NCBI GenBank assembly: GCA_024276655.1
Contig: JAJRWU010000264.1
Span: 1-34,102, forward strand
From: Planctomycetota bacterium
GTDB lineage: Bacteria; Planctomycetota; Planctomycetia; Pirellulales; Pirellulaceae
Length of the DNA stretch: 34,102 bases
Direction of reading: 5' to 3'
Part shown: one piece after another, positions 4,851-33,221 of the stretch
How the letters are laid out: each line of letters begins with the position of its first letter
How positions within the stretch are numbered: the stretch's first letter is position 1
Translations under genes and position numbers: made by a program
Notes under the pieces: model-generated
What the model saw: only the letters and a program-made list of their open reading frames with translations
Databases searched by the model: none
Told to the model about the DNA's origin: nothing

Positions 4851-5565
4851 GGCCGAACAAAACCGCGGATAGCCGGCCGCGCTGCTGCTCGCGACGCCCT
4901 GATCGAGAAAGGACGCGAAACGAAAGGACTGTCGAAGTGCTAACTGAAATGGACTTTGCACGAAAATCTCCGTGGGTGAGGCGAGTCTGGGCCAAGCGTC
5001 CAGACCCCTCATGAGTATCTAACGCCGCGAATCGAACTGCAAGCATGTTTTTCGGGGTTGCACATCTCGAATCGAATTGCGACGGGGAATTTCAAGTCGG
5101 GAAACCTCGCCGAAAACTGCCGTAAGGCGAGCGGTGGATAAAAATTTACCAACGGTGTTTTCCCTCTTTTCAAGGGGAGCGAGAGAGCGTCGTCTGAACC
5201 AAGCAAGTCCCTTAAAAAGAGGATAATTCGTTTTTGCCGCCCGCCTAAATGCAGCTTTGTAATCCGCTCGTTCGGGTTCCCACATTTGAAGCTCTGCGGA
5301 TGTCGGCAATTCCACTGAATACTTTGTTCTTCCATCGACGATCTTATATGTGTCGAGGAACCGAGGCAAACACCACGCCGGCGGAGTCGTGCCAAAGGCG
5401 CGGTCATTTTGAAAATATCGGCCCAAGGAAGTACGACAGGAGCCCGATATTCCGTCTTTTTGAGGTCGAGTCGCCCATCGCCCTTAATTGGTTGCGGCAA
5501 GAAATCTCTGCAACGAGCGTGTTGTTTAACGCAATATTTGCAGCGGAAACTTTAGCGTGGGAGTC
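4851..5565. other. Non-coding divergent intergenic region
   Basis: About 715 bp between the SGNH gene (minus) and the small two-CxxC gene (plus). Several short frames cross it on both strands, but none has a recognisable motif, a good ribosome binding site or coding-like composition. The only structure I recognise is the family-B-like inverted repeat at 5126-5245. Promoters for both flanking genes must lie here, but I could not pick out convincing -35/-10 pairs. Confidence 0.6.
5126..5245 (+). repeat. Divergent family-B inverted-repeat element
   Basis: The left end reads ggcgagcggtggataaaa and the right end, reverse-complemented, reads ggcgggcggcaaaaacg. These match the ends of the 145-bp family-B elements at 9987-10131 and 18595-18739 (ggcgagcggcagatgaaaat / ggcgagcggcagaaaataac). 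The interior differs from both, so this is either an old copy or a subfamily sharing only the ends. It lies in the gap between divergent genes. Confidence 0.5.
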
Positions 5566-9101: not shown

Positions 9102-9986
9102 ATGACGTTGCTTAGCATGACCGGCTTTGGCGAAGCGAGGCTCGAACAAGACGGGCTTTCGCTGGGCGTTGAAGTTCGTTCCATCAACAGCCGCTACTTC
9201 AAACTCTCCACGCGGACGCCGGAAGGTTATGCGCCGGTGGAGCCGCGAATCGAAAGTTTGGTTCGCAAGTTTGTCTCGCGTGGTTCGGTGCAAGTGAGCT
9301 TGCGGGTGGTGCGGGAGTTATCGGCTGACGACTTTCAAATCGACCCCGTCGTTTTGGGCGGGTATTACCGCCAACTCAACGAATTAAGCGGCGAATTGGG
9401 CGCTGAGGCGTTTACAAGGTTAGACGCCTTGCTGACGCTGCCCGGCGTGGCGGTTGAGCGGCAGCGAGCCAGTAGCGATGTTGAACAACGCTGGCCGTTG
9501 GTCCAGGAAACTCTCACCACGGCATTGGAGCGCCTGCGGCAAATGCGGCAAGAGGAGGGCCGGGCGATGGCCCAAGACCTACTCGAAAAATGTGCTGACG
9601 TCGCTGCGCAATTGACAACGGTGGAGCAACGCGCGCCGCTGGTGGCGGAGGCGTATCGGCAACGATTGACCGAACGGCTGAACAAACTGCTGGGCGAACA
9701 CGAAATCAATATCGAACCCCGGGATATTGTCCGCGAAGTGGGCATTTTCGCTGATCGTTGCGATATTTCCGAGGAGACGGTCCGCCTGCGCAGCCACTTG
9801 GCGCAATTTGAGGCGATCATGAAAGAATCGCAAAGCGGCAAGAAATTGGAGTTTCTCATCCAAGAGATGTTTCGGGAAATCAACACCATCGGCTCCAAGG
9901 CGAACAATGCGGAAATTGCCGCCTGCGTGATCGAAATGAAGTCGGCGGTGGAGCGGATGCGTGAAATGGTTCAGAATGTGGAATAA
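9102..9986 (+). CDS. yicC: YicC/YloC family endoribonuclease
   Basis: A 294-residue protein of normal family length. The N-terminus MTLLSMTGFGEARLE matches the conserved MTGFG signature. The C-terminal DUF1732 half carries LEFLIQEMFREINTIGSKA and the family ending ECxxE-like region, here AACVIEMKSAVERMREMVQNVE. YicC proteins are reported to be endoribonucleases; in many bacteria the gene sits next to gmk, as here. The start has no visible Shine-Dalgarno, and an AT-rich TATATT hexamer lies at 9084-9089, so a leaderless or very short leader transcript is possible. Its TAA stop abuts a family-B repeat at 9987, which with an A element fills the gap before gmk. Confidence 0.93.
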   Translation: MTLLSMTGFGEARLEQDGLSLGVEVRSINSRYFKLSTRTPEGYAPVEPRIESLVRKFVSRGSVQVSLRVVRELSADDFQIDPVVLGGYYRQLNELSGELGAEAFTRLDALLTLPGVAVERQRASSDVEQRWPLVQETLTTALERLRQMRQEEGRAMAQDLLEKCADVAAQLTTVEQRAPLVAEAYRQRLTERLNKLLGEHEINIEPRDIVREVGIFADRCDISEETVRLRSHLAQFEAIMKESQSGKKLEFLIQEMFREINTIGSKANNAEIAACVIEMKSAVERMREMVQNVE

Positions 9987-10131
9987 GGCGAGCGGCAGAT
10001 GAAAATTTACCTAATACAAGCACGAAGCGCAAGCGAGTGAATCAGCAAACGGTCATTCCCGCGTAGGTGGGAACCAAAAAATAGTCACGGACTCCCGCTG
10101 CATGCGGGTAAGTTATTTTCTGCCGCTCGCC
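9987..10131 (+). repeat. Family-B inverted-repeat element, copy 1
   Basis: 145 bp bounded by ggcgagcggcaga and its inverse tctgccgctcgcc. The interior contains two further short palindromes: attcccgcgtaggtgggaa and a ctcccgctgcatgcgggt stem. It matches 18595-18739 along its whole length in the opposite orientation. It encodes no protein of its own. The inner ATTCCC...GGGAAT core resembles short palindromes dispersed in many other bacterial genomes. It begins right after the yicC stop codon. Confidence 0.85.
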
Positions 10132-10139
10132 CTAAGCTA

Positions 10140-10240
10140 AGGAATAGTCCTGAATTTATATGCCGAATTAAAAGCCCGGCATTTTCAAAATGCCGGGCTT
10201 TTCTGAACGACAATCGGTAACTTATTTCAGGACTATTCCT
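10140..10240 (+). repeat. Family-A inverted-repeat element, copy 1
   Basis: 101 bp with perfect 15-bp terminal inverted repeats: aggaatagtcctgaa at 10140-10154 and ttcaggactattcct at 10226-10240. In the centre, 10170-10202 is a perfect hairpin with 16-bp arms around aaaagcccggcatttt, followed by T residues, which could also act as a terminator. It lies 8 bp after family-B copy 1 and about 50 bp before gmk. The gmk frame reads back into it, giving a false N-terminal extension. Confidence 0.9.
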
Positions 10241-10291
10241 GAGACTGGAAATTCGATCACACGCTTACTCAAGATGCGTTCTGAACACGCC

Positions 10292-16876: not shown

Positions 16877-16977
16877 AGGAACAGTCCTGAATTAACATAC
16901 CGAATCAAAAGCCCGGCATTTTCAAAATGCCGGGCTTTTCTGAACCACAACCGGATCTTTACTTCAGGACTATGCCC
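16877..16977 (+). repeat. Family-A inverted-repeat element, copy 2
   Basis: 101 bp, ends aggaacagtcctgaa and ttcaggactatgccc, with the same central hairpin aaaagcccggcatttt as copy 1 in the same orientation. The right end has diverged at its outer bases. It lies 14 bp after the hydrolase stop and 39 bp before the deacetylase gene, both on the plus strand. Confidence 0.88.
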
Positions 16978-18492: not shown

Positions 18493-18593
18493 AGGAATAG
18501 TCCTGAAATAAGTTACCGGTTGTCGTTCAAAAAAGCCCGGCATTTTGAAAATGCCGGGCTTTTAATTCGGCATGTAAATTCAGGACTGCTCCT
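18493..18593 (-). repeat. Family-A inverted-repeat element, copy 3
   Basis: 101 bp, reverse orientation relative to copy 1. Ends aggaatagtcctgaa and ttcaggactgctcct; the central hairpin is intact. It sits between cysH and the Rrf2 gene, both on the minus strand, and is immediately followed by family-B copy 2, mirroring the composite at 9987-10240. Confidence 0.9.
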
Positions 18594-18594
18594 A

Positions 18595-18739
18595 GGCGAA
18601 CGGCGGAAAATAACTTACCCGTACGCGACGGGAGTCCCGGGAGTGTTTTTGGGTTCCCACCCACGCGGGAATGACCGTTTGCTGATTCACTCGCTTGCGC
18701 TTCGTGCTTGTATTGGTAAATTTTCATCTGCCGCTCGCC
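18595..18739 (-). repeat. Family-B inverted-repeat element, copy 2
   Basis: 145 bp, the reverse complement of 9987-10131 with few differences. Ends ggcgaacggcgg and ctgccgctcgcc. It carries the same inner palindromes. One base separates it from family-A copy 3, compared with 8 bp at the other locus. Confidence 0.87.
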
Positions 18740-18752
18740 CTAAAACAGACGG

Positions 18753-19649
18753 TCAGTCGTTTTCGTCGAGAGAATGCAAGCCGCATTCGGTTTTTGCGGT
18801 TCCGCTCCAACGGCCGGCGCGGTCGTCTTCCCCAAACAAAATGGCCCGCGTGCATGGTTGGCAGCCAATGCTCGCGTAGCCTTGATCGTGCAAAGGATTA
18901 TACGGTATGTCGTGGTCGGTGATCATCTTCCAGATGTCTGATTTGGTCGAATTGGCCAACGGACTGATCTTCACCAACTGAAACTTTTTGTCCCAGCCGA
19001 CGATCGGCGTTTTGGCGCGGTCGGGGCTTTGGTCGCGGCGAATAGCGCTGGCCCAGGCGTGCATCCCCACGACCGCACGATGCAAAACGTTGAGCTTCCG
19101 GTCGAGGCAACATTGCGCGGGATTGATCGTGTGCAGAGGCCCGCCGTTGGCCGCTTCGTATTCCGCGACGGTGAGGTCGGGCCGCTTGAGTTCGACTTCC
19201 ATGCCGTACCGCTGCGCGACCCGGTCGCGAAGTTCGAGCGTTTCTTGAAACTGGTAGCCGGTGTCGAGATTAAAAATCGGCGTTTCGGCCGCAATTCCAG
19301 CCAGCATGTGAATAATGGTCATGCCTTCAGGACCAAACGCCGTGGCCATGGTGAACTTGGGCGAGAAACGTTCGACCGCCCACTCCAAAATCTGCTGGGG
19401 CGTCGCACTTTCCAGACGCTCGCTCTGCTGGGCCAAATCTTCCAGCAATTCGGCGGTGGGCTCTAGTTTGGCGACATCGGTCGACTGGTATTCATCGGTC
19501 GACTGGGCTTCATCGGTCGACTGGGCTTCATCGGTCGACATGGCTTCATCGGTCGACATGGCTGCGTCCGGAAAAATGACCTGGAGACGGGGAGAAGGCG
19601 GCTCTTCCAGAATCGGCCGCTCTGGCGTGCTGCGTGCAAGATGGTTCAT
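18753..19649 (-). CDS. cysH: Adenylyl-sulfate reductase (CysH family), with N-terminal tandem repeat
   Basis: A 298-residue reductase producing sulfite from activated sulfate. FGPEGM and FNLDTGYQF match the PP-loop fold. Cys180-Cys181 (AQCCLDRK) plus Cys263-x-x-Cys266 (GCQPCTR) are the iron-sulfur ligands that mark the APS-using (plant-type/assimilatory) branch, and Cys289 in ECGLH is the catalytic residue. Unusually, residues 31-60 are five copies of a six-residue unit (MSTDEA or QSTDEA), from an 18-bp DNA repeat. The start at 19649 is supported by an AAGGAG about 12 nt upstream, and a good promoter lies 60 bp further up. ATGs inside the repeat could give shorter forms. Confidence 0.94.
   Translation of the reverse strand: MNHLARSTPERPILEEPPSPRLQVIFPDAAMSTDEAMSTDEAQSTDEAQSTDEYQSTDVAKLEPTAELLEDLAQQSERLESATPQQILEWAVERFSPKFTMATAFGPEGMTIIHMLAGIAAETPIFNLDTGYQFQETLELRDRVAQRYGMEVELKRPDLTVAEYEAANGGPLHTINPAQCCLDRKLNVLHRAVVGMHAWASAIRRDQSPDRAKTPIVGWDKKFQLVKISPLANSTKSDIWKMITDHDIPYNPLHDQGYASIGCQPCTRAILFGEDDRAGRWSGTAKTECGLHSLDEND
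19470..19559 (-). repeat. 18-bp tandem repeat, five units, inside cysH
   Basis: Five in-frame 18-bp units (consensus ggcttcatcggtcgactg on the plus strand) at 19470, 19488, 19506, 19524 and 19542. They encode STDEA-type hexapeptides. Units 3-5 are nearly identical, suggesting recent slippage. Copy number may vary between strains. Confidence 0.93.
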
Positions 19650-19908: not shown

Positions 19909-20010
19909 AGGAACAGTCCCGAAATAAGTTACCGATTGCGGCTCAAAAAAAGCCCGGCATTTTGAAAATGCCGGGCTTTTAATTCGGTATGTAAATTCGG
20001 GACGGTTCCT
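19909..20010 (-). repeat. Family-A inverted-repeat element, copy 4
   Basis: 102 bp, reverse orientation. Ends aggaacagtcccgaa and ttcgggacggttcct. Compared with copies 1 and 3, both ends carry a matching change (tcctga/tcagga to tcccga/tcggga), so the terminal pairing is kept. The central hairpin is intact. It lies between the epimerase stop and the cysH promoter. The rest of the 19650-20092 gap holds only the cysH promoter. Confidence 0.88.
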
Positions 20011-25916: not shown

Positions 25917-25954
25917 GGCTCACTCTCCAGCGGGATATCAGCACGAATGCATCG

Positions 25955-26029
25955 CCTAAAAGCCCGGCGTTTTGAAAATGTCGGGATTTTCTAAACTACA
26001 ACCAGTAACTTATTTCAGGACGAGCCCAA
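25955..26029 (+). repeat. Degenerate family-A element, copy 6
   Basis: A partial copy in forward orientation. It keeps taaaagcccggcgttttg, a mismatched stem partner and the right end taacttatttcaggacgagc; the left terminal repeat is missing. It lies between the DUF1501 stop and the lactonase start, opposite in orientation to the local transcription. Confidence 0.65.
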
Positions 26030-27513: not shown

Positions 27514-27613
27514 TTTGCCACAGAGGACACAGAGCACTCAGAGTGTGATGTATCGGGGGTCGCCTATCGTTCTTAACTCTTTTCTCAGTGGCCTCTGTGT
27601 TCTCTGTGGCAAA
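27514..27613. repeat. CACAGAG-type inverted repeat
   Basis: Arms tttgccacagaggacacagag (27514-27534) and ctctgtgttctctgtggcaa a (27593-27613) pair over 21 bp with one mismatch. The element is 100 bp with a non-coding interior, like a small non-autonomous mobile or hairpin element. It lies between the DUF1501 and DUF1553 genes. Confidence 0.8.
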
Positions 27614-27672: not shown

Positions 27673-27822
27673 TATACCGCACGCGGCTGAAAATGTCGCT
27701 TTTTTCGTTTAACGGCAAGCCGAAGGCGGCTGTGTTTTGAGCCCACACGTTCGGGCAGAACAGAAAACGCAGTCGCCTTCGGCTTGCCGTTAAACGAGCC
27801 ATCGCCAGCCGCGTGAAGTATA
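27673..27822. repeat. Nested 150-bp inverted repeat (family C)
   Basis: Outer arms tataccgcacgcggctg (27673-27689) and cagccgcgtgaagtata (27806-27822) pair with two mismatches. Inner arms of 23 bp, beginning cgtttaacggcaagccg (27706-27728), pair perfectly with 27774-27796. An outer-arm relative, tatactccacgcggttg, occurs at 21163-21179. No coding sequence inside. Confidence 0.82.
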
Positions 27823-30839: not shown

Positions 30840-33146
30840 TTAGTAAACACCAGCGGAGTCGTTGAAGCAACCCGAAAAACAGGGCCCTTCGAGGGGGGCG
30901 AGGGGCTGGGTGGCTGATCTCCGCAGCTGATCGTCCGCTGTTATCCGGCGCGAGCGGTAGAGCGGCGTTGGCAACGTAACGCGCAATTGCATTGCTGGCG
31001 CTGGCGGCAAATCGGGAAGAGAAACCGCCAGCGTGTTTGCATTGATGGCTGGGGGCGATGCGGTGGATTGGTTTTCGAGCGGGTTGTGTTGAGAGTAGAG
31101 GGCGTCGGCGAAGAGGGCGTCCACTGCGGCGGTAAACTCCCCTTCGCCGTTGGCTTGGGCTCGGAGGACGGCAATAATTCCCAGGAGGTCGGAAATGTCG
31201 GCGACGCCGTTGGCGTCGACGTCTACAAACGGCGGCGTCGGCGGCTGCGTCGGTAGTGTGAAGGAAACGCCATTGTCGCGGAGGAAGCTAATCACAGCCA
31301 GTAAATCGTTGATATCAACGCCGCCGTTGTTGTTGACATCGGCCGGTAAAGCGTCGTTATTCCAAGGGTGGAGCACCGTTGTATCGAGAATTTGCAGGCT
31401 GGCGTCAACGCCGACGAAGCCGGCGGCGGCGGCGGAAATCGTGGCGGTTTGCGTTCCGTCGACGATCGCATCCTCCACGGCCGTGATCGGGAAGGTGACG
31501 CTGGCCGCGCCGGCGGGAATGATCACCTGCGCCGCAACGGTGGCTTCGCTGGTGTCATCACTAGCAAGGTTGACGGTTAAGGCCGCGCTGGTGTCCGCAC
31601 TATTACGAGTGACCGTGCCGGTGGCCACTCCGCCGCTTTCACTGATGGAGGCGGCGTTGATCGTGACGACCAGCGTCTCAGCGGCCTGGACGGCCCAAGG
31701 CTCTATACCTGTCACGCCATCGTCGGCGGTGAAAAAGATCGCACCTCCCACGGCAGTCATGGAGTGGCCAGACAAGCTGCTGCTGCCGCCGGGGTTGATA
31801 TCTTTGACCAACACCGTGCCGCTCGGCGTGCCATCGCTCTTCCAAAGCTCGCGGCCATTCGCGCCATCATCGGCGAGGAAAAAGACCTCGCCGCCCACAG
31901 CAGTCATGGAGCGAGGAAGCGAGCCGCTGCCGCCGGGGTTGATGTCTTTGACCAACACCGTGCCGCCGGGCGTGCCGTCGCTCTTCCAAAGCTCTCGACC
32001 ATTCGCGCCATCGTCGGCGCGGAAAAAGAGCTCGCCCTCCACAGCGGTCAAATAGCGGGGAAGCGAGCGGCCACTGGGGTTGATATCCTTGACCAGCACC
32101 GTGCCGCCGGCCGTGCCATCGCTCTTCCAAAGCTCAATGCTACTCGCGCCATCGTCGGCGCTGAAAAAGAGTGTGTTGCCCAAGACGGTCATGGAGCGGG
32201 GAAGCGAGCCGTTGCCGCCGGGGTTGATGTCTTTGACCAACACCGTGCCGCCGGGGGCGCCATCGCTCTTCCAAAGCTCTCGGCCATTGACGTCATCGAA
32301 GGCGCTGAAAAAGAGCGTGTCGCCCACGGCGCTCAAAGAGCCGGGAAATGAGCCGCTGCCGCCGGAATTGATATCTTTAACCAACACCGTGCCGCTCTCA
32401 GTACCATCACTCTTCCAAATCTCCTCGCCGTCGACGCCATCGTCGGCGGTGAAAAAGAGTGTACCGCCCACGGCGGTCAAAGCGGTGGGATTCGAGCTGC
32501 CTATGCCGGAATTGGTGTCTTTGACCAACACCGTGCCGCCGATTGTGCCATCGCTCTTCCAAAGCTCCTCGCCACTCGCGCCATCGTCGGCGGTGAAAAA
32601 GAGCGTGTCCCCCACGGCGGCGAAATTGCGGGGCATTGCGTTGCCGCCAGGATTGATGTTTTTGACCAACACCGTGCCGCCGATTGTGCCATCACTCTTC
32701 CAAAGCTCTTGGCCATTCGCGCCATCGTCGGCGCTGAAAAAGAGCGTGTCGCCCACAGCGGTTATAGAGCGAGGAAACGAGTTGCCGCCGGGGTTGATAT
32801 CCTTGACCAGCACCGTGCCGCCGGGCGCGCCATCGGTTTTCCAAAGCTCATCGCCATTGACGCCATCGTTGACGGTGAAAAAGAGCGTGCTTCCCACGGC
32901 AGTCAAATTGCGGGGGTTTGAGCTGCCGATGGGATTGATATCGGCCAAGAGGAAAGGCTCGCCCGCAGGCTCGCCTTCCGCTGCATCGGCCGGTATGGTG
33001 AGGCCAAAATCTCCGAAGCCGCTCAGGCAAAGCCGCTGTTCCAAACCTTCACCCGCCAACCGGGAGCTGCGGCGGCGTAATGCCTGCCTGTTTCTCGCCC
33101 GCCGATTTTTAGCTGGACGAGCCTTGCGTTTTGGCCAAACCACCAT
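30840..33146 (-). CDS. ELWxxDGT-repeat surface protein with Calx-beta-like and dockerin-like domains
   Basis: A 768-residue protein from ATG 33146, chosen because GGAG lies 7 nt upstream; the frame extends to TTG 33197 and ATG 33179. The N-terminus is very basic (RRARNRQALRRR) and then EGLEQRLCLSG, the planctomycete LExR-L-LS export/sorting signature. Eight full and one partial repeat of about 47 residues follow (ELWKSDGTxGGTVLVKDINPGG), each with an LFFxADDG strand, as in ELWxxDGT-repeat proteins. Next is a Calx-beta-like region (SESGGVATGTVTRNS) and two dockerin-like calcium loops (DVNNNGGVDINDLLAVI, DVDANGVADISDLLGII). It is probably an extracellular or surface protein. The ligand is unknown. 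Confidence 0.9.
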   Translation of the reverse strand: MVVWPKRKARPAKNRRARNRQALRRRSSRLAGEGLEQRLCLSGFGDFGLTIPADAAEGEPAGEPFLLADINPIGSSNPRNLTAVGSTLFFTVNDGVNGDELWKTDGAPGGTVLVKDINPGGNSFPRSITAVGDTLFFSADDGANGQELWKSDGTIGGTVLVKNINPGGNAMPRNFAAVGDTLFFTADDGASGEELWKSDGTIGGTVLVKDTNSGIGSSNPTALTAVGGTLFFTADDGVDGEEIWKSDGTESGTVLVKDINSGGSGSFPGSLSAVGDTLFFSAFDDVNGRELWKSDGAPGGTVLVKDINPGGNGSLPRSMTVLGNTLFFSADDGASSIELWKSDGTAGGTVLVKDINPSGRSLPRYLTAVEGELFFRADDGANGRELWKSDGTPGGTVLVKDINPGGSGSLPRSMTAVGGEVFFLADDGANGRELWKSDGTPSGTVLVKDINPGGSSSLSGHSMTAVGGAIFFTADDGVTGIEPWAVQAAETLVVTINAASISESGGVATGTVTRNSADTSAALTVNLASDDTSEATVAAQVIIPAGAASVTFPITAVEDAIVDGTQTATISAAAAGFVGVDASLQILDTTVLHPWNNDALPADVNNNGGVDINDLLAVISFLRDNGVSFTLPTQPPTPPFVDVDANGVADISDLLGIIAVLRAQANGEGEFTAAVDALFADALYSQHNPLENQSTASPPAINANTLAVSLPDLPPAPAMQLRVTLPTPLYRSRRITADDQLRRSATQPLAPLEGPCFSGCFNDSAGVY
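31690..32940 (-). repeat. Tandem ~144-bp repeats within the ELWxxDGT gene
   Basis: Nine units in a row, one at each ELWxxDGT motif. Plus-strand landmarks ttgaccaacaccgtgccgcc and ctcttccaaagctc recur about every 144 bp. The units are nearly identical in stretches, suggesting duplication or gene conversion. Coding throughout. Confidence 0.9.
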
Positions 33147-33221
33147 TTTCCCGCTCCAAATGCCAGTCAAAAACCCCATATACGGAAGCCTGCCCAATAT
33201 AACCCGCCGAGAGCCGCCGGT

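Follow-up and report, generated by a model that had tools for sequence, protein, structure and literature searches.

A and B, two short elements that adjoin one another at two places in a planctomycete contig, are MITEs inserted with duplication of a 3-bp TNA target. To judge from their sequences, they are very probably non-autonomous families that carry the ends of two ISAzo13 subgroups and would be moved in trans by ISAzo13 transposase, and the two A+B pairs look like sequential insertions rather than one moving unit. The stretch analysed (the window, 34,102 nucleotides) is the whole of contig C197 of the draft genome G000, which comprises 5.96 Mb in 328 contigs.

The elements and their copies in the genome

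An earlier note on this DNA had described a composite of A and B at 9987-10240 that recurs, reverse-complemented, at 18493-18739. Both composites are present: B1 (9987-10131) and A1 (10140-10240) are separated by CTAAGCTA (8 bp), and in the mirror orientation A2 (18493-18593) and B2 (18595-18739) are separated by a single base. The copies of A that had been listed without B (16877 and 19909) were found as well, as was the B-like element without A at 5126, which has B-type ends around an unlike interior and TAA on each side. A and B are indeed separate units, non-coding as the note had it, and A was correctly located; its ends were not, since the 101 bp assigned to it include outer A/T bases that form part of the TNA target, the true core being GGAAC..GTTCC.

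So delimited, A is 99 bp long with 14-bp terminal repeats, and B is 145 bp long with 13-bp terminal repeats. Their predicted hairpins are strong compared with shuffles (z -10.7 for A1 and -6.4 for B1), and the identity between copies (95% for A1 and A2, 92% for B1 and B2) is far above chance. The view that A and B are unrelated is doubtful, as their right ends have GG-N(10-11)-AAATAASTTACC in common; all 28 exact occurrences of this pattern in the first sample have surroundings that we interpret as right ends of A or B, and one shuffled copy has none. Rfam gave no matches within the window. The features are as follows.

9984-9986, plus strand: TAA target site, the left target duplication of B1 and the stop codon of the yicC-like ORF 9102-9986
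9987-10131, plus strand: B1, a MITE with a 13-bp terminal inverted repeat GGCGAGCGGCAGA and an R-type core
10133-10135, plus strand: TAA, the probable right target duplication of B1, with one extra C at 10132
10141-10239, plus strand: A1, a MITE in which the ends GGAATAGTCCTGAA / TTCAGGACTATTCC surround the hairpin core GCCCGGCATTTTCAAAATGCCGGGC
10240-10242, plus strand: TGA, the right flanking triplet of A1; the left one is TAA at 10138-10140, with an unlike middle base
18494-18592, minus strand: A2, with TTA on both sides when read past B2 and one TAG
18595-18739, minus strand: B2, flanked by TAG at either end, one of these triplets overlapping the first base of A2
16878-16976, plus strand: lone A with target duplication CAA/CAA, the site being empty in the sister genome G001
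19909-20010, minus strand: lone A with flanks TCA/TAA
5126-5245, plus strand: B-type ends around a different core, flanked by TAA/TAA
24682-24768, minus strand: degenerate A-like element, 66% over its full length
25932-26027, plus strand: degenerate A-like element, 76%

By our reading, the core of the element at 5126-5245 appears to resemble that of a G001 element at L219 2505-2634. Other repeats were seen in the window: a 34-bp inverted repeat at 27705-27797 (TCGTTTAACGGCAAGCCGAAGGCGGCTG..), which looks like a further repeat family of G000 (28 islands in the first 60-contig sample); an inverted repeat at 27514-27613 (TTTGCCACAGAGGACACAGAGC..), which resembles a CAGAGGACGC core seen inside a shell of B ends in G221 (L244); 18-bp tandem repeats at 19470-19568 (GGCTTCATCGGTCGACTG..) within a PAPS reductase domain ORF (18753-19649); and tandem 141-144-bp repeats at 31635-32915 inside a large dockerin-like ORF (30840-33197). 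Elsewhere in G000, a DDE_Tnp_1-type reading frame (L121, C326:244-516) is broken by short tandem repeats (GRDDWAATTGPRRL..).

Both families are spread through the genome. A first look at G000 gave 555 A and 235 B candidates, only 40 of each being scored. In a sample of 1.44 Mb of the 5.96 Mb, composed of 100 contigs (the first 20 kb or less of each) and the window, A is represented by 67 distinct good copies and B by 48, which by proportion extrapolates to about 280 and 200 in the whole of G000. Matches to A in this sample total 203, the rest including many hairpins that have the A core and other ends. A third family, D, is 119 bp long and is represented in the same sample by 60 rows, three of them duplicates, leaving 57 distinct copies at a minimum identity of 75%; 38 rows are at least 97% identical.

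Target sites, empty sites and the origin of the pairs

The flanks were tested on 61 A and 51 B copies taken from the window, the 60 contigs sampled first and the 60 top-ranking search loci, of which those with clean GG..CC ends were kept (44 A and 37 B, with 17 A and 14 B dropped), a set enriched in best-matching copies. When the copies are aligned end to end, the flanks are mostly TNA on both sides. Identical flanking 3-mers were found in 17/44 A copies as compared with 4.8 expected (500 shuffles, maximum 11), and in 21/37 B copies as compared with 6.9 expected (500 shuffles, maximum 14). The free middle base agrees in 35/44 A copies (14.9 expected) and 23/37 B copies (14.1 expected), and among other duplication lengths from 1 to 10 bp none rose above shuffles for A or B. 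MITEs of the IS630/Tc1 type duplicate a 2-bp TA target; this type was rejected, as 2-bp identity occurred in 1/44 A copies (4.9 expected) and 1/37 B copies (6.2 expected), and it is 3 bp that exceeds expectation instead. A further flank test, made in the work on B shells, gave identical flanks in 20/26 cases against 9.1 (maximum 17), or in 22/27 if equal flanks are preferred, and D gave 44/56 rows against 17.9 shuffled (maximum 32), with duplicate rows left in. A candidate family C (GGAAAGCGTGG ends) was omitted as unconvincing: its contaminated set gave 8/161 against 3.8, with a shuffle maximum of 10.

The flanking triplet is the stop codon of an ORF in 9/67 A and 5/48 B copies (14/115 in all). 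TNA stop triplets make up about 8.5% of the tolerated TNA sites (807 vs 8640 noncoding), which predicts about 10 such cases, so that stop codons are not clearly enriched.

The sister genome G001 has a mean identity of 92-96% to G000 over the compared chains, with up to 97% in single blocks. The A copy at 16878 is absent from G001, where a single CAA replaces CAA-A-CAA; reciprocally, an A copy of G001 (L225, TTA-A-TTA) is absent from G000, and a B copy of G000 (L181 4252-4433, TTA-B-TTA) is absent from G001. The simplest reading of these empty sites, which occur in both directions, would be insertion in both lineages after their split, precise excision being an alternative that presence and absence by themselves leave standing. 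Between yicC and gmk, G001 has an unlike spacer of 88 bp in place of a clean empty site.

The same TNA sites mark the junctions of the A+B pairs. At 18493-18739 B2 probably landed on the border of A2, and it is probably the later of the two because one TAG duplicate of B2 overlaps the first base of A2. At 9987-10240 B1 occupies the TAA stop of the yicC-like gene, which is left intact, and A1 lies 8 bases further on. Another pair (L064) reads TAA-B-TAA-A with TAA also after A, and a pair in G001 (C38) reads TTA-B-TTA-A-TTA with A reversed. The difference in spacing within the window (8 bp versus 1 bp), which the earlier note had taken to favour independent insertion, fits separate insertions at TNA.

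A compound MITE, in which A+B was moved as a pair to both places, would account for the shared order and orientation (B then A) of both window pairs and of L064, and the A members would agree with it: A2 is second (tied) of 67 in kinship to A1, behind L167, and A1 is second of 67 for A2. Since they are mutually second-closest, the A members alone would leave room for a joint move; it is the B members, the junctions and the orientations that speak against it. Neither B copy of the window pairs is a near relative of the other (B2 ranks 18/47 for B1, and B1 ranks 12/47 for B2), the junctions are unlike (8 bp, or a shared TNA), A is reversed in the G001 pair, and 42/48 B copies lie more than 60 bp from any good A. 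A single composite unit is therefore very unlikely, and the separate insertion of A and B, which had been favoured from the outset, stands.

An A copy lies within 15 bp of 4/48 B copies, one of them overlapping and two in the window. The expected number of close pairs is 0.35 at random noncoding positions and 0.55 at random noncoding TNA sites, and by comparison with the latter P is 0.02 when the overlapping pair is set aside (three pairs) and 0.002 when it is included. As two of these pairs are the window's own, we claim no pairing preference: outside the window one non-overlapping pair and the overlapping pair remain in the 1.44-Mb sample, which is not clearly above chance. The count of copies and pairs that had been proposed thus bears out the genome-wide spread of both families and leaves a preference for pairing unproven. 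A and B are themselves targets of D. On visual inspection, four D copies in G000 stand at the same site of the B right end (L093 13378-13496, L199 9033, L169 8694 and L097 9651) and three in the A right end (L193 13766-13884, L100 and L111); the strict motif AA[GC]TTA precedes D in 6/60 rows, one of which (L087) is outside A and B.

ISAzo13 elements with matching ends

The earlier suggestion that a transposase with corresponding ends be sought was sound, as relatives of G000 carry such elements. The candidate partner of A is an ISAzo13 element of 1318 bp in G149 (C119; L315/L353), with a PF07592 match at E 4e-107 and TAA/TAA flanks, whose left end agrees with the A end GGAACAGTCCCGAA in 14/14 bases and whose right end agrees in 13/14. 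Its interior, as we read it, appears unlike that of A beyond the ends. Its transposase is split over two frames, an arrangement observed in two ISAzo13 elements (L353, 471-1788, and L310, 1455-2596), and GAAAAAAAGGGG lies near the frame switch of the G149 element, as in programmed frameshifting.

For B, the match comprises one end only, at two contig starts. These contigs (L290 and L303) belong to the Pirellulaceae MAG G407 and have the same first 138 bases, both from contig base 1, which encode a 38-aa protein C-terminus whose stop codon lies within an exact B end; TAA follows in one and TTA in the other, and the flanks are unlike. This looks like a multi-copy insertion sequence cut off by assembly. 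The C-terminus is 68% identical to that of G407:C458 (PF07592, E 8.5e-11). The 38-aa peptide alone had no Pfam or NCBIfam match, and a tblastn search of plasmids gave weak matches in nine cyanobacterial records (45-57% identity, E 0.01-0.6), one of which (Nostoc) belongs to a PF07592 protein, an ISAzo13 transposase (E 2e-67).

The exact 25-bp B end was found in 40 stretches of a collection of 84,980 species genomes, which may omit records near the window's genome. All are in records titled planctomycetes, two of them titled Ca. Kuenenia, which we take to be a planctomycete. A 22-base version of the end occurs in 12/396 genomes of the window's order and its reversed control in none, and IMG/VR gave no matches to the B shell. 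PF07592 was found in 10/14 genomes searched (G000, G001, ten others with the 22-base B end, G019 and G407), the exceptions being G178, G327, G138 and G221, and in 0/14 control genomes. G000 itself has eight PF07592 matches in five contigs, all partial and several at contig ends of the draft. Neither G000 nor G001 yielded an ISAzo13 element with A or B ends, the three readable G000 ends being D-type, and strict patterns applied to 159 contig ends of G000 revealed no A- or B-ended element running open into the contig end.

Some of these remnants have ends that resemble those of D. Three in G000 (C254, C93 and C26) end in ..NYTITPQILQ, a stop codon and TTTCACGAGCGATGC or a one-base variant, followed by TTA or TAA, and in two G001 remnants the protein terminus and stop run in the same way into TTTCACGAGCGATGC or a one-base variant; the remnant ends agree with the two D ends in 16 and 17 of 21 bases. 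A matrix of transposase C-termini, in which 17/20 loci were recovered, places two A-ended copies together (70%), D-ended copies in a second group (57-96%) and, in a looser one (34-70%), the B-ended G407 copies, a G001 copy (C58) and two cyanobacterial copies, beside others with further end types. The end of the C58 copy has the inner AAAATAA..TACC motif of B in common, and not the outer bases. In addition, the duplication of 3 bp by A and B agrees with the 3-bp target duplications given for the ISAzo13 family in the section of PMC10045372 available.

An origin from the IS5 family, whose IS1031 and IS427 groups also use TNA or similar targets, would fit the 3-bp TNA duplication too, and an IS5-type fossil in G000 (C55) begins after TAA. 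Four Pfam models, however, gave only three partial matches in G000, none with matching ends around it, and two models gave one match in G001; ISAzo13 elements with matching ends were found. We therefore consider IS5-derived MITEs most improbable.

From the ISAzo13 ends we infer mobilization in trans, in which an ISAzo13 DDE transposase would bind the ~14-25 bp ends of A or B, excise or copy the short hairpin element and join it to a 3-bp staggered TNA target, which would thereby be duplicated. Insertion would be tolerated at TNA sites between genes and at stop codons, the yicC TAA being an example. A and B would adjoin because both use the same TNA target, composites arising where one MITE landed in or beside a TNA adjoining another: at 18493-18739, A would have come first and B would then have entered a TAG overlapping the A boundary, and at 9987-10240, B would have entered the stop codon of yicC, within a few bases of A. 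Neighbouring repeats would then need no pairing mechanism beyond the common TNA target.

Shells, cores and known systems

B ends were surveyed in the G000 sample, regions of G001, most of the 30 loci of the 22-base search and 7 of the 40 exact-end loci, two of three flank bases being required to be equal; this set was not used for the duplication test. The survey yielded 72 B-ended elements from 14 sources (13 assemblies, with JAADGD and G217 taken as one), whose interiors fall into 16 clusters, or 15 without a chance match in a coding region (L064 12068); two of these, both from JADHUC, look akin. The representatives of 12/15 clusters fold with z of -2.3 or lower as compared with base-shuffles, down to -10.5, and the other three, including the largest (R), fall short of -2.3. 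In different planctomycetes the B end thus surrounds about 15 clusters of dissimilar cores, mostly predicted hairpins, and certain cores recur within other shells.

The R core (GCACGAAGCGCAAGCGAGTGA) is nearly confined to B in G000 (49/52, the other three being B-like or beside A), and in other genera it is found either lacking the B shell or enclosed by different inverted repeats (L146, L147, L148 and L154). The D core was found inside a B shell in G178 (L247), an element that the survey clustering had put under R. At L093 5690-6000 of G000, two adjacent elements agree in all 26 bp of the left end and differ in the core (R in one, T in the other), and the G001 counterpart (L232) is without the R-core element, a configuration that suggests exchange between neighbouring elements. 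Cores may be loaded by nested insertion followed by loss, by template switching between hairpins or by plain end-sharing, which occurs in some eukaryotic MITEs. We give an even chance to the proposal that pairs of ISAzo13 ends serve as exchangeable shells, which time and again take up palindromic cores and spread them, one core appearing in different shells. If this is true, the high-copy palindromes of planctomycetes would belong, at least in part, to the cargo that transposons pass from shell to shell, instead of forming repeat families of their own.

In the G000 sample the T core of A was counted 66 times in A and 112 times outside it, including B-like shells (L086 4008 and L079 3473). This recurrence outside A copies and the strong hairpins of A1 and B1 would also be expected of hairpins or terminators of the REP/BIME kind, dispersed by recombination or a RAYT and retained because they serve the host. 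Spread of that type is disfavoured because target duplications are present, 3 bp long, around elements with terminal repeats and with empty sites; a simple terminator scan missed the A hairpin and picked one in B, leaving a terminator function of A unsupported by that scan. We therefore regard the REP/BIME reading as highly improbable beside that of ISAzo13-type MITEs, although the hairpin cores may have a host role. For a large number of the hairpins between genes in a planctomycete genome, some hundreds if the sample is extrapolated, this would mean a specific origin, as ISAzo13-type MITEs that differ in place between sister species, and the constant shell with exchangeable hairpin cores makes the pickup and sharing of palindromes between genera testable.

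Like A and B, ISAzo13 insertion sequences (PF07592, Rhodopirellula transposase DDE domain) duplicate 3 bp of target, and their end types go with transposase subgroups, as far as the available text of PMC10045372 describes them. Most of their ends begin with GG, as do those of A and B, and have subterminal AAATAA or AATTTACC motifs; they are ~1.3 kb long with a gene, whereas A and B are gene-less and 99-145 bp long. RUP, NEMIS and Nezha are tied to IS families other than ISAzo13. These bacterial MITEs, named in the accessible part of PMC3733652, are like A and B short and gene-less, with terminal repeats and many copies. A and B differ from them in the TNA target, the ISAzo13 partner and the presence of one end type around many unlike hairpin cores. 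REP/BIME palindromes are not known to make target duplications and are linked to the RAYT tyrosine transposase. Like A and B, they are hairpins repeated many times between genes, according to the portions available of PMC3733652 and PMC2817692, but the A and B cores lie within transposon ends that target duplications flank. TIMEs (Tn3-derived inverted-repeat miniature elements) have miniature ends that yield mosaic elements, as here, their ends being those of Tn3 in the part of PMC4133298 at hand, and those of A and B being of the ISAzo13 type; that part makes no mention of palindromic cores being shared. The open-access literature searched, in the parts available, held no description of ISAzo13 MITEs. 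Judged on these open papers, two MITE families side by side are of a known kind, and what appears new is their assignment to ISAzo13, their presence and absence in two sister planctomycetes, and the pattern of shells and cores.
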